64,000 bases of DNA from Thermosipho africanus Ob7 (GTDB lineage Bacteria; Thermotogota; Thermotogae; Thermotogales; Fervidobacteriaceae), in contig NZ_NKRG01000003.1 in assembly GCF_003351105.1 (NCBI RefSeq), forward strand, positions 62,001-126,000. The letters run 5' to 3'. How positions within the stretch are numbered: the first letter of the stretch is position 1; each line of letters starts with the position of its first letter. Both the position numbers and the translations under genes were made by a program. The notes below the pieces were generated by a model. The model was given only the letters and a program-made list of their open reading frames with translations. It was not told where the DNA came from and ran no database searches. Shown here piece by piece: positions 2,753-53,209 of this stretch.

Positions 2753-3023
2753 GGTGCCGTGCTAAGCGGGGGGTTGGTGGTCCCCTGTACCCGAAATCCA
2801 CCTAGCGGGGCTTAATTCCCTTGCCAAGGTTTGTGGGGTCTGAAAACGGTCCTCGGTAGGGCGCTGAAGGTTGAGTCCTACGCAACAACTACCTGTGAAC
2901 CGGGTCAGGTCCGGAAGGAAGCAGCCCTAAGCAGGCAAGTGTGTGCCGTAGGGGTGCTCAGCCGGAGCCCGATTCGAGAATACGCTCAGGTCCCGCGTAA
3001 TCGAAGCAAGGGTGCACGGCACC
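2753..3023 (+). ncRNA. ffs: Signal recognition particle RNA, large bacterial type
   Basis: Scaffold RNA of the signal recognition particle, which binds Ffh and directs membrane-protein synthesis. The hallmark domain IV loop is present (GGTCAGGTCCGGAAGGAAGC around 2899-2918). The ends pair perfectly: GGTGCCGTGC at 2753 with GCACGGCACC at 3014-3023. At about 271 nt it is the long form with an Alu domain, as in Firmicutes and Thermotogae, not the 4.5S form. It is far more GC-rich than its surroundings, typical of structural RNA in an AT-rich thermophile. Open reading frames across it are spurious. Confidence 0.97.
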
Positions 3024-49232: not shown

Positions 49233-49262
49233 TTGACCTAATCATAAAATACATGTTATACT
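49233..49262 (+). promoter_or_regulatory. Promoter of the pur operon
   Basis: TTGACC (49233-49238), 18 bp, TATACT (49257-49262). Start near 49269, just before the PyrR-type loop. Confidence 0.7.
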
Positions 49263-49271
49263 TAAGTTGTA

Positions 49272-49303
49272 CCTTTAATTTGGTCCCGTGAGGCCAAAAA
49301 GGA
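49272..49303 (+). promoter_or_regulatory. PyrR-type RNA binding loop in the pur leader
   Basis: CCTTT (49272-49276) pairs with AAAGG (49298-49302) and holds TGGTCCCGTGAGGCCA, which fits the PyrR anti-antiterminator consensus (UCCNGNGAGGY). The lower stem also covers the AAGGAG ribosome site of the leader peptide. PyrR loops normally control pyrimidine genes, so its presence before purE is unexpected. Consensus from memory. Confidence 0.65.
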
Positions 49304-49312
49304 GTGAGAAAA

Positions 49313-49408
49313 ATGAGTAAATTGCGCTCAATACTTTTGTTATTTAAATATTTTAGAAAAATCCCTGCCATCTATGATGGCGGGGATTTTTTGCTTTATA
49401 GGGGGTGA
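49313..49408 (+). CDS. Leader peptide of the pur operon
   Basis: 31-codon reading frame, [14 protein letters not shown] then [17 protein letters not shown], with AAGGAGTG 9 nt before its ATG. It covers both arms of the terminator and ends 4 nt before the purE start. Probably translated for control, not for its product. Confidence 0.55.
49357..49392 (+). terminator. Attenuator terminator before purE
   Basis: AAAAATCCCTGCCATC / GATGGCGGGGATTTTT hairpin with a 3-nt loop and a T-run, entirely inside the leader peptide frame. Confidence 0.9.
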
Positions 49409-49412
49409 TGAG

Positions 49413-49865
49413 GTGATAAGTATTATTGCAGGCAGCAAAAGTGATTCAAACATAGTAGAAAAAGTAGAAAAAGTCCTAGAAGAATTTTCAGTACCATATG
49501 AAACAAAATATCTTTCAGCACACAGAACACCAGATTTGTTGGATGAATACATTCAAAGCTGCGAAAAGAAAGGTACCAAAGTATTTATTGCAATCGCAGG
49601 TGGAGCAGCTCATCTTCCAGGGGTAATTGCTTCAAAAACATTAAAACCAGTCATTGGGGTACCTGTAAAATCTAACGACTTAGGGGGATTAGATTCTTTA
49701 TTATCTATTGTTCAAATGCCAAATGACATTCCAGTTGCTACCGTGGGGATCGATAGGGGGAAAAATGCCGCATTACTTGCAATTGAAATACTTGCGTTAA
49801 GTGATGAAAGTTTATCAAAAAAACTAAAAGATTACCGCTCAAAGCTTGTGGGGAAGTATCTTTAA
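49413..49865 (+). CDS. purE: N5-carboxyaminoimidazole ribonucleotide mutase
   Basis: Converts N5-CAIR to CAIR in purine synthesis. [17 protein letters not shown], and [12 protein letters not shown] are the PurE marks. 150 aa from GTG 49413, 7 nt after GGGGG. An ATG at 49374 in frame would start in the terminator and is rejected. First gene of purE-C-S-Q-L; a purK partner is not seen. Confidence 0.95.
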
Positions 49866-49879
49866 GGGGGGATGTATTT

Positions 49880-50566
49880 ATGGAAGGAAAAACAAAGATT
49901 GTTGAAAATTTTGGGGATTACGTTATTTTAAATTTTAAAGATGATATCACTGCCGGGGATGGGGAAAAACATAACGTTTTAGAAGGGAAAGGTGCTATTT
50001 GCGCAGAAATTACCGCAATTTCAATGAAATATTTAAACTCAATGGGGATATATACACAATTTTTAGATTTCATTTCACCTAACAAAATAAAAGCAGTATC
50101 ATTAAAAATGTTACCACTTGAAGTTGTAGTAAGGTTAAAAAAAGCGGGATCTTTTATAAGAAGATACGGGGGTAATGAGGGAGAAGAATTTAAAGAACCT
50201 CTAGTTGAATTTTTTATAAAAGATGATGAAAGACATGATCCTATGGTATGTAAAAACCATCTTGTATTATTTGAAATCTGTAATGAAAAACAAGCAGAAG
50301 AAATAGAAAAAAGTGCTAAAAAAACAGCAATTGAACTTAAAAACTTTTTTGAAAAACTTGGATTTGATCTATGGGATATGAAGTTTGAATATGGTATTGA
50401 CAATGAAGGAAAAGTCTGTTTAGGTGATGAAATTTCACCTGATACTCTGAGACTTAGAAAAAAAGATGGTATATTTGATAAGGATGTATATAGAAAAGAT
50501 TTAGGAGATCCACTTGAAAAATATAGGGAGGTTCTCTCAGCATGCAGAAGTTTAAATTTGTTATAG
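49880..50566 (+). CDS. purC: SAICAR synthetase
   Basis: Joins CAIR and aspartate. EGKTKIVENFGDYVILNFKD at the start, MLPLEVVVR, GDEISPDTLRL. 228 aa, normal. ATG after GGGGGGATG. Overlaps purS by 25 bp. Confidence 0.95.
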   Translation: MEGKTKIVENFGDYVILNFKDDITAGDGEKHNVLEGKGAICAEITAISMKYLNSMGIYTQFLDFISPNKIKAVSLKMLPLEVVVRLKKAGSFIRRYGGNEGEEFKEPLVEFFIKDDERHDPMVCKNHLVLFEICNEKQAEEIEKSAKKTAIELKNFFEKLGFDLWDMKFEYGIDNEGKVCLGDEISPDTLRLRKKDGIFDKDVYRKDLGDPLEKYREVLSACRSLNLL

Positions 50567-50790
50567 ACATTCAATACAAAAGCAACGTCAGAGATCCAAG
50601 AGGAGAAACTATTGCAAGAGTTTTAAGAGAAGAAGGTAACATACCAATAGAAAGCATACGAATTGGTAAATCCATACATGGGGAAGTTCAAGCTGAAAGC
50701 AAAGAACAAGCAGAAAAATTAGTTATAAAAGCTTGTGAGGAATTACTGGTTAACCCTGTTACAGAGGAGTTTAAGGTGGAGATAAAATGA
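50542..50790 (+). CDS. purS: FGAM synthetase subunit PurS
   Basis: 82-aa structural subunit that bridges PurQ and PurL. KFVIDIQYKSNVRDPRGETI is the PurS head. ATG after GGGAGG, inside purC. Overlaps purQ by 4 bp. Confidence 0.95.
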   Translation: MQKFKFVIDIQYKSNVRDPRGETIARVLREEGNIPIESIRIGKSIHGEVQAESKEQAEKLVIKACEELLVNPVTEEFKVEIK

Positions 50791-51419
50791 AAGCTGGAGT
50801 TATAGTATACCCAGGTTCAAATTGCGATCGAGATGCATTTTATGCATTAAAACTTTCAGGTTTTAAACCATATTTTGTTTCCACAAAGGACAATCTAGAT
50901 GATTTTGAGCTTGTAATTCTTCCTGGAGGATTTTCATACGGTGACTATCTAAGACCTGGTGCTGTATCAGCAAGAGAATCATCTAATGTAAAAAAATTTG
51001 CAGAAAATGGCGGACTCGTACTTGGAATTTGCAATGGATTTCAAATACTTGTAGAAATGGGACTCCTTCCAGGTGGATTACTTCAAAATAAAAACGGAAA
51101 ATTTATTTGTGAAACTGTTGAACTTGAAGTTGTTAATAACGAAACACCTTTTACATTAATGTATAAAAAAGGAGAGGTAATAAAATTACCAATTGCTCAT
51201 GGCTTTGGAAGATATGTTATAGATAAGCAACCAAATGTTGTATTCAAATACAAAGAAGATGTAAATGGTTCCGATCAAAACATAGCAGGAATAATAAATG
51301 GAAATATTTTAGGAATGATGCCACATCCAGAAAGAGCCGTTGAAAAAATAATGGGGAGTGACGATGGGATAAAACTTTTTAAATCACTTTATGAATACAT
51401 AAGAGGTGGTAAAAAATGA
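50787..51419 (+). CDS. purQ: FGAM synthetase glutaminase subunit PurQ
   Basis: Class I glutamine amidotransferase: GICNGFQILVEMG (Cys), MMPHPERAVE (His-Glu). YPGSNCDRDA at the start is typical PurQ. 210 aa. Overlaps purS and purL by 4 bp each, so all three are made together. Confidence 0.95.
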   Translation: MKAGVIVYPGSNCDRDAFYALKLSGFKPYFVSTKDNLDDFELVILPGGFSYGDYLRPGAVSARESSNVKKFAENGGLVLGICNGFQILVEMGLLPGGLLQNKNGKFICETVELEVVNNETPFTLMYKKGEVIKLPIAHGFGRYVIDKQPNVVFKYKEDVNGSDQNIAGIINGNILGMMPHPERAVEKIMGSDDGIKLFKSLYEYIRGGKK

Positions 51420-53209
51420 AATACTTAGACATACTCGAAGAAAGCCTTGGTAGAAAAGCCACCACAAACGAAATAGAAGCTTTTACAGTAATGTGGAGCG
51501 AACACTGTGGATACTCTCATACCAAAAAGTATATAAAAAGACTTCCACTTGTAAGTGAGGAATCGGGAAACGCAGGTCTTGTACCTCTAAATGATAAGTA
51601 TTATATATCGTTTAAAATTGAAAGTCATAACCATCCAAGCGCAATTGAGCCTTACAACGGAGCTGCAACTGGTGTTGGAGGGATAATAAGAGATATACTT
51701 GCAATGGGAGCAAGGCCTACTGCTATTCTTGATTCTTTACATATGCACAAGATAATAGACGGAATAATTGAAGGAATTGCCGATTATGGAAATTCAATAG
51801 GCGTTCCAACTGTTGGCGGAGAACTAAGAATCAGTGACGCCTATAAATATAATCCACTTGTTAACGTTATGGCAGCAGGTATAGTAAAAAAAGAAAATAT
51901 CATTACTTCTAAAGCAACAAGAAAAGGACAGGTAATTGTAATTTTTGGTGGAGCAACCGGAAGAGATGGAATTCATGGAGCTTCATTTGCTTCAGAAGAC
52001 CTTACGGGTGAAAAAGCAAACAAACTTTCTATTCAAGTTGGTGACCCATTTGCAGAAAAACAACTCATTGAAGCATTTTTAAAAATGGTAGAAGAGGGCC
52101 TGGTAGAAGGAGCACAAGATCTTGGTGCTGGGGGTGTTCTTTCTGCTACTTCTGAGCTTGTAGCAAAAGGAGGTTTTGGAGCAATAATAGACCTAGAAAA
52201 TCTTCCACTAAGGGAACCTGACATGAAACCAATAGAAATATTAATAAGTGAAAGCCAGGAAAGAATGGCAGTAATAACATCAAAAGAAAAAGCAGAAAAA
52301 ATATTAAAAATAGCTAAAGATCACTTACTATTTGGAGCAATTGTCGGAGTAGTTACGGATGATGGTATATACCATGTAAGACACAATGGCAAGACCATTT
52401 TGAAAGTTCCTGCAAAATTACTTTCAAATGCTCCTGAAGAAGAAATATATGAATTTGAAAAAGATGCACTCCCAGAAAATATAGATCTTACATTTTCACC
52501 TGTTGATGCAAGCTATGTTTACACTCAATATGATTATATGGTTGGAACTGATACAATAATTAAACCAGGATATGGAGCTGCTCTCATGAGAATAAAAGAT
52601 GAAGATATATACTATTCTCTTCTTACACATAGCAGAGCAGACATTGGAAAAGTTAGTCCATATTGGGGTTCTTTTATTGCTGTTATTGAAAGCGTTAGAA
52701 AAACAATAGCTGTAGGTGCCGAGCCACTTGCAATAACCGATTGTATAAATTATGGAGATCCTGATGAAGAGCCTGAAGGACTAGCTGCTATGATGCAAGG
52801 GTTGAAAGATGCCTGTGAATTTTCTAATATAAAAGTTGCAAGTGGAAATGCTTCACTTTACAATACAAACAACAAAATTCCAATTCCACCAACAATGGTA
52901 ATTGGCATGGTAGGAAAAGCTACCAAGGCATTATTACCTAAATCTGGAGATGTATATATTATTGGTTGGAAAGATTTTGATCTTGAAAGAGAAAAAATTC
53001 TTTGGAATGAAATCAAAAAACAAACATCAAAAGGAAATTTTGTACTTGCTTTATCAAACTACAAAGAAAATCCAACGTACACAAAAAATTTAGGTTTAAA
53101 GATCTCCGATATCCAACACTCTCCAATTCACCAGCTAATTTTAGTAATAGGAAACGATGTAAAGAGTGACTTGCCTATAAAAAAGATAGGAAAAGCTACC
53201 CTACAGTAG
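51416..53209 (+). CDS. purL: FGAM synthetase large subunit PurL
   Basis: Small (597 aa) PurL that works with PurS and PurQ. WSEHCGYSHTK at the N-terminus, ESHNHPSAIEPYNGAATGVGG, GATGRDGIHGASFAS. The last part is somewhat short but intact. Ends the operon before a terminator. Confidence 0.95.
   Translation: MKYLDILEESLGRKATTNEIEAFTVMWSEHCGYSHTKKYIKRLPLVSEESGNAGLVPLNDKYYISFKIESHNHPSAIEPYNGAATGVGGIIRDILAMGARPTAILDSLHMHKIIDGIIEGIADYGNSIGVPTVGGELRISDAYKYNPLVNVMAAGIVKKENIITSKATRKGQVIVIFGGATGRDGIHGASFASEDLTGEKANKLSIQVGDPFAEKQLIEAFLKMVEEGLVEGAQDLGAGGVLSATSELVAKGGFGAIIDLENLPLREPDMKPIEILISESQERMAVITSKEKAEKILKIAKDHLLFGAIVGVVTDDGIYHVRHNGKTILKVPAKLLSNAPEEEIYEFEKDALPENIDLTFSPVDASYVYTQYDYMVGTDTIIKPGYGAALMRIKDEDIYYSLLTHSRADIGKVSPYWGSFIAVIESVRKTIAVGAEPLAITDCINYGDPDEEPEGLAAMMQGLKDACEFSNIKVASGNASLYNTNNKIPIPPTMVIGMVGKATKALLPKSGDVYIIGWKDFDLEREKILWNEIKKQTSKGNFVLALSNYKENPTYTKNLGLKISDIQHSPIHQLILVIGNDVKSDLPIKKIGKATLQ

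Follow-up and report, generated by a model that had tools for sequence, protein, structure and literature searches.

A predicted PyrR-dependent, translation-gated attenuator ahead of the purine operon of Thermosipho africanus Ob7

Textbooks present PyrR as the attenuation protein of the pyrimidine genes. Why, then, should a PyrR-type binding loop stand in front of the purine genes purE-C-S-Q-L in Thermosipho africanus Ob7, as an earlier note on this DNA had claimed? The locus lies within a 64,000-nucleotide stretch of contig NZ_NKRG01000003.1 (positions 62,001 to 126,000, forward strand), the whole of which is referred to as the window; the coordinates of its relevant features are collected in Table 1.

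A check of the sequence located GGTCCCGTGAGGCC within a CCTTT/AAAGG stem at 49272-49302, as claimed. Searching with the Rfam PyrR model returned a match at 49268-49396 (RF00515; score 62 bits, gathering score 54; E=4.1e-6 when 64 kb are searched on both strands with 4227 families). No other match in the 1.93-Mb genome exceeds the cut-off, and the core pattern GTCCNNNGAGGNY likewise has a single occurrence there; together, the E-value and the uniqueness of the core rule out a chance match as the origin of the loop. The element consists of a 5-bp lower stem (49272-49276/49298-49302), an AAU bulge (49277-49279), a 6-bp upper stem (49280-49285/49292-49297) and a terminal loop of the form C-NGNGA (49286-49291). 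All 11 base pairs are intact in 17 distinct relatives, eight of which carry a G-C to C-G double change. The consensus of PyrR sites is described as ARUCCAGAGAGGYU for the loop and upper stem, with an internal bulge (PMC7430163). The match to this consensus that had been noted holds for GGUCCCGUGAGGCC, with a closing G-C pair instead of A-U; the two remaining deviations fall on loop positions that are variable among the relatives. From its sequence, 49272-49302 is thus a predicted PyrR-binding loop of the RF00515 class. The full feature is wider than the loop first pointed out, and includes the leader, a terminator and the start of purE (49233-49415).

Table 1. Features of the purE leader and operon (window positions)
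Feature	Position	Strand	Basis and remarks
Promoter-like TTGACC (49233-49238), 18-nt spacer, TATACT (49257-49262)	49233..49262	+	Sequence, genus conservation
PyrR-binding loop (predicted)	49272..49302	+	RF00515, 62 bits; pairs kept in 17 distinct relatives; genus identity 94-100%
Shine-Dalgarno (SD) AAGGAG of leader ORF	49299..49304	+	Sequence; 4 of 6 bases within 3' arm of loop
Leader ORF, 31 codons	49313..49408	+	Start 8 nt past SD; passes through terminator; frame kept in relatives
Intrinsic terminator hairpin, 17 bp, 3-nt loop, T run at end	49356..49392	+	Folding, relatives
purE	49413..49865	+	TIGR01162, 198.8 bits; start GTG 49413
purC	49880..50566	+	TIGR00081, 153 bits, below curated cut-off 189.9
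purS	50542..50790	+	TIGR00302, 50.6 bits, cut-off 39
purQ	50787..51419	+	NF002957, 275.7 bits
purL	51416..53209	+	NF010690, 1157.8 bits

The promoter-like element would start the RNA a few nucleotides before the loop, placing the loop at the 5' end of the transcript. The distance from TTGAC(C/T) and TATACT to the loop is constant in all four genus members, the 60 nt upstream being 57% identical in the distant pairs. The SD is made up of the 3' arm AAAGG and the next AG, a layout with the SD in the stem that is seen at every uraA and purE loop in the family. The leader ORF ends 4 nt before the GTG of purE, which itself lies 111 nt beyond the loop. A mechanical ORF list begins purE at ATG 49374; this codon lies within the terminator and is an unlikely normal start. 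In the folding model the terminator forms with a probability of 0.99 at 37 °C and about 0.89 at 70 °C. Elsewhere in the window, at 2757-3019 (+), we found a bacterial large SRP RNA (RF01854, 177.7 bits).

The earlier note had made its case depend on a pyrR gene in the genome and on conservation of the loop in close relatives, and both were found. A pyrR gene is located away from the purine operon (C2:114190-114705; 228.6 bits, cut-off 138), and its product matches PyrR crystal structures, among them that of Bacillus caldolyticus (1non, E=3e-56). The PRPP motif VILVDDVLFTGRT is kept. So are the equivalents of B. subtilis H22, R141, R146 and K152, residues with RNA-binding roles in PyrR; T18 is replaced by M. 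Across 103 Thermotogota genomes the loop (E<=0.01) is present in 33, of which 31 encode pyrR. Of the other two, one (G008) is a 60%-complete genome and the second (G030) has a weak match, E=0.009. Among the same 103 genomes, no loop was found in family genomes without pyrR, G008 excepted, nor in any member of family f3. Apart from the purE leader, our search of the Ob7 genome for further PyrR loops gave a good one at uraA only; another Rfam match (C6, 32.8 bits) has a visible terminator and lacks the loop. The uraA loop covers the SD of the strain's own uracil permease gene (NCS2 family, L139:6674-7915, minus strand).

The loop is kept before purE in all four genus members and in two sister-genus genomes. 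Loop and SD are 94-100% identical within the genus and 94-97% identical to those of the two more distant species. Compared with these two, the leader is 48-61% and the upstream DNA 57% identical, and outside the closest genus pair the DNA around the loop falls to 48-61% identity. The two closest species differ by a single indel, which is situated between SD and ATG and leaves the frame of the leader ORF intact; among the relatives generally this frame is retained although the sequence diverges. The leader peptides, one of which is MSYTFGLCVLKNMNINKAPTFFMVGAFCF, show no conservation of their amino acids, and each of the purE leaders compared has a different terminator hairpin in the same place; for hairpins and peptides alike, sequences differ and positions are kept. 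An SD, a start codon 7-9 nt from it, an ORF and a terminator recur in six purE leaders from two genera with divergent sequences.

How could such a leader act? The likely answer, in our view, is that the purine operon is controlled by a PyrR-dependent attenuator gated by translation. PyrR with its co-repressor, which is UMP in known PyrR proteins, would clamp the loop and leave the leader untranslated; the terminator would then fold and purE-C-S-Q-L would not be transcribed. With PyrR free, a ribosome would trail the RNA polymerase along the leader and hold the terminator open, stopping beside the purE start, and the operon would be made. Binding by PyrR, UMP as co-repressor and repression as the outcome are what we infer from known PyrR biology. 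In the folding model most of the SD is already concealed in the free RNA at 37 °C. At 70 °C the lower stem of the free loop is marginal (about 0.3) and the terminator holds, so bound PyrR could make the difference.

A leader of this class could also work by classical Bacillus-type attenuation, in which PyrR stabilises an anti-antiterminator and thereby frees the terminator, the leader ORF being incidental. The full-length match to the Rfam model, terminator positions included, is what such a leader would give; the middle antiterminator region of the model, however, aligns poorly, and no pairing competes with the terminator in any of the six purE leaders in a fold test that had no Bacillus leader as positive control. 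Blocking the loop in silico left the terminator probability essentially unchanged in these six leaders (0.99 both with and without blocking in the window). Since the terminator is indifferent to blocking of the loop, a Bacillus-type antiterminator is unsupported and leader translation is the remaining route; we regard the classical mechanism as very unlikely here.

The openness of the purE leader ORFs is weak evidence when taken alone (shuffle P 0.2-0.5 each), because these leaders are short. The case for translation gating at purE rests on the conserved SD in the stem, the start spacing, the terminator and a parallel with pyrC. In all eight pyrC leaders of the sister genera (L063-L070) the first codons of a leader ORF (MVNLV-RG--) lie within the loop itself. 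These ORFs of 68-97 codons are open through a terminator about 110-160 nt downstream in 8/8 cases, and the two other forward frames are always closed. When shuffled, seven of the leaders stay open in 1-6% of cases and one in 32%. Read in this way, the pyrC leader ORFs lend independent support to the predicted translation-gated attenuation.

No PyrR loop was found upstream of the strain's own pyrCKDFE operon (L135:9317-13067, minus strand). What precedes it is a GGGGGG run, a 17-codon leader ORF and then, immediately, a strong terminator. Two other genus members share this arrangement, which may represent UTP-sensitive attenuation of the pyrBI type. This raises the alternative that the purE leader too is a pyrBI-type device sensitive to UTP or to ribosome speed, with only a minor part for PyrR. 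A leader ORF running through a terminator behind T-rich DNA is the pyrBI layout as well, and the strain's own pyrC leader has that form with no PyrR loop. Such control would have no need of an SD placed within a conserved PyrR loop, however, and we hold it to be highly improbable at purE.

The wider distribution of the loop bears on how a PyrR site came to precede purE. In the sister genera the loop covers the SD of the uracil permease gene uraA, and in eight genomes (G001-G005, G009-G011) it heads a uraA-purK-purE-C-Q-L operon, a layout read directly in seven and inferred from gene positions in G003. The gap between uraA and purK ranges from 4 to about 95 nt. In two genomes of the Fervidobacterium group (G006 and G007), uraA and purK are missing at the locus, where the loop is followed by a leader ORF, a terminator and then purE. 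Among the family genomes with a purine-operon loop, purK is absent exactly where the loop directly precedes purE, that is, in the four genus members and in G006 and G007; two genus members give only a partial 45-bit match to the purK model. In genome searches of G000, G012-G014, G006 and G007, purK was not found and purE is retained. The PurE of these genomes may use AIR directly, or N5-CAIR may form unassisted. A PurL tree groups G006 and G007 with the sister genera, so the direct loop-purE layout would be either ancestral or have arisen twice. Recent horizontal transfer of purE between the genus and G006/G007 is not supported, as the tree keeps both in their own genus group.

Because the loop precedes uraA-purK-purE in sister genomes, and purK is absent precisely where the loop abuts purE, one could take the loop for a relic of a lost uraA-purK segment, left in front of a purE that is no longer regulated. 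The loop in the genus is 94-97% conserved against 48-61% for its flanks, however, its differences are confined to two unconstrained loop positions, and promoter spacing, SD, ORF and terminator have all been kept. A relic is accordingly a very improbable reading, and a functioning attenuator is preferred.

Within the family, 14/14 genomes that possess both pyrR and purE carry a PyrR loop at the start of their purine operon, and no loop was found in the one genome that has purE and lacks pyrR (G019). The uraA-associated loop occurs almost throughout families f1 and f2. About 80 loci in all genomes have the pattern of loop plus SD, and purE or purK lies within 2.5 kb of it (tblastn) in the Fervidobacterium group only. 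Somewhat more tentatively than for the purE leader itself, we favour a family-wide scheme in which PyrR would jointly regulate uracil uptake and pyrimidine and purine synthesis. It would do so by controlling translation at ribosome-binding sites, acting directly at uraA and through terminator-reading leader ORFs at purE and at the pyrC of the sister genera.

By analogy with known PyrR systems, purE-C-S-Q-L would be tied to pyrimidine levels, as the earlier note inferred. The PyrR of B. caldolyticus is antagonised by purine nucleotides (PMC7430163). In the present case the wiring would run the other way too, from PyrR to the purine genes. Should GTP counteract PyrR in this strain as it does in B. 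caldolyticus, high GTP would switch the purine genes on, so the wiring would not be the simple balancing of purines and pyrimidines that had been suggested, nor simple feedback, and the sign of control is puzzling. PRPP antagonises UMP on PyrR and should build up whenever nucleotide synthesis slackens. As a signal for both pathways it would make more sense than GTP. The locus would be a conserved example, open to experiment, of a single RNA-binding protein that sets the two nucleotide pools.

The element itself is known (RF00515), the mechanism has already been proposed for Thermus, and the purine target is the part not found described. The text of a regulon census presents PyrR as controlling pyrimidine metabolism (PMC3766115). 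We found no description of PyrR control of a purine operon in the freely readable article texts that were searched. With the B. subtilis pyr attenuators (RF00515) the purE leader shares the loop, stems and bulge, a score above gathering, a downstream terminator and a cognate pyrR. It differs from them in targeting purE-C-S-Q-L instead of pyrimidine genes, in having its SD inside the stem, and in lacking an antiterminator by the fold test, which had no Bacillus control.

For the pyr attenuator of Thermus ZO5, Van de Casteele et al. reportedly proposed in 1997 that PyrR acts on the leader and that a translating ribosome prevents the terminator, with no antiterminator involved; ribosome-dependent PyrR attenuation in Thermus is said to have stayed a proposal. 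The purE leader has the same traits, in that its loop overlaps the ribosome-binding site of the leader and its leader ORF runs into and through the terminator, but the target in Thermus is pyrR-pyrB-pyrC and here it is a set of purine genes. In Mycobacterium smegmatis, Fields and Switzer are said to have reported in 2007 translational repression by PyrR through a loop that overlaps the ribosome-binding site. There the structural gene is repressed directly, as at the family's uraA, where the SD overlapped by the loop is likewise that of the first structural gene; at purE that overlap is not found, and the leader ORF would gate the terminator instead. Clostridial carA leaders (L148, L150, L165, L174, L185, L217 and others) have a PyrR loop, an SD in the stem and a leader ORF of about 30 (20-50) codons that extends to a terminator. 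Their anatomy is that of the purE leader and their target is a pyrimidine/arginine gene; apparently they follow the same translation-gated design. The purE leader would add comparative support for ribosome-dependent attenuation by PyrR.
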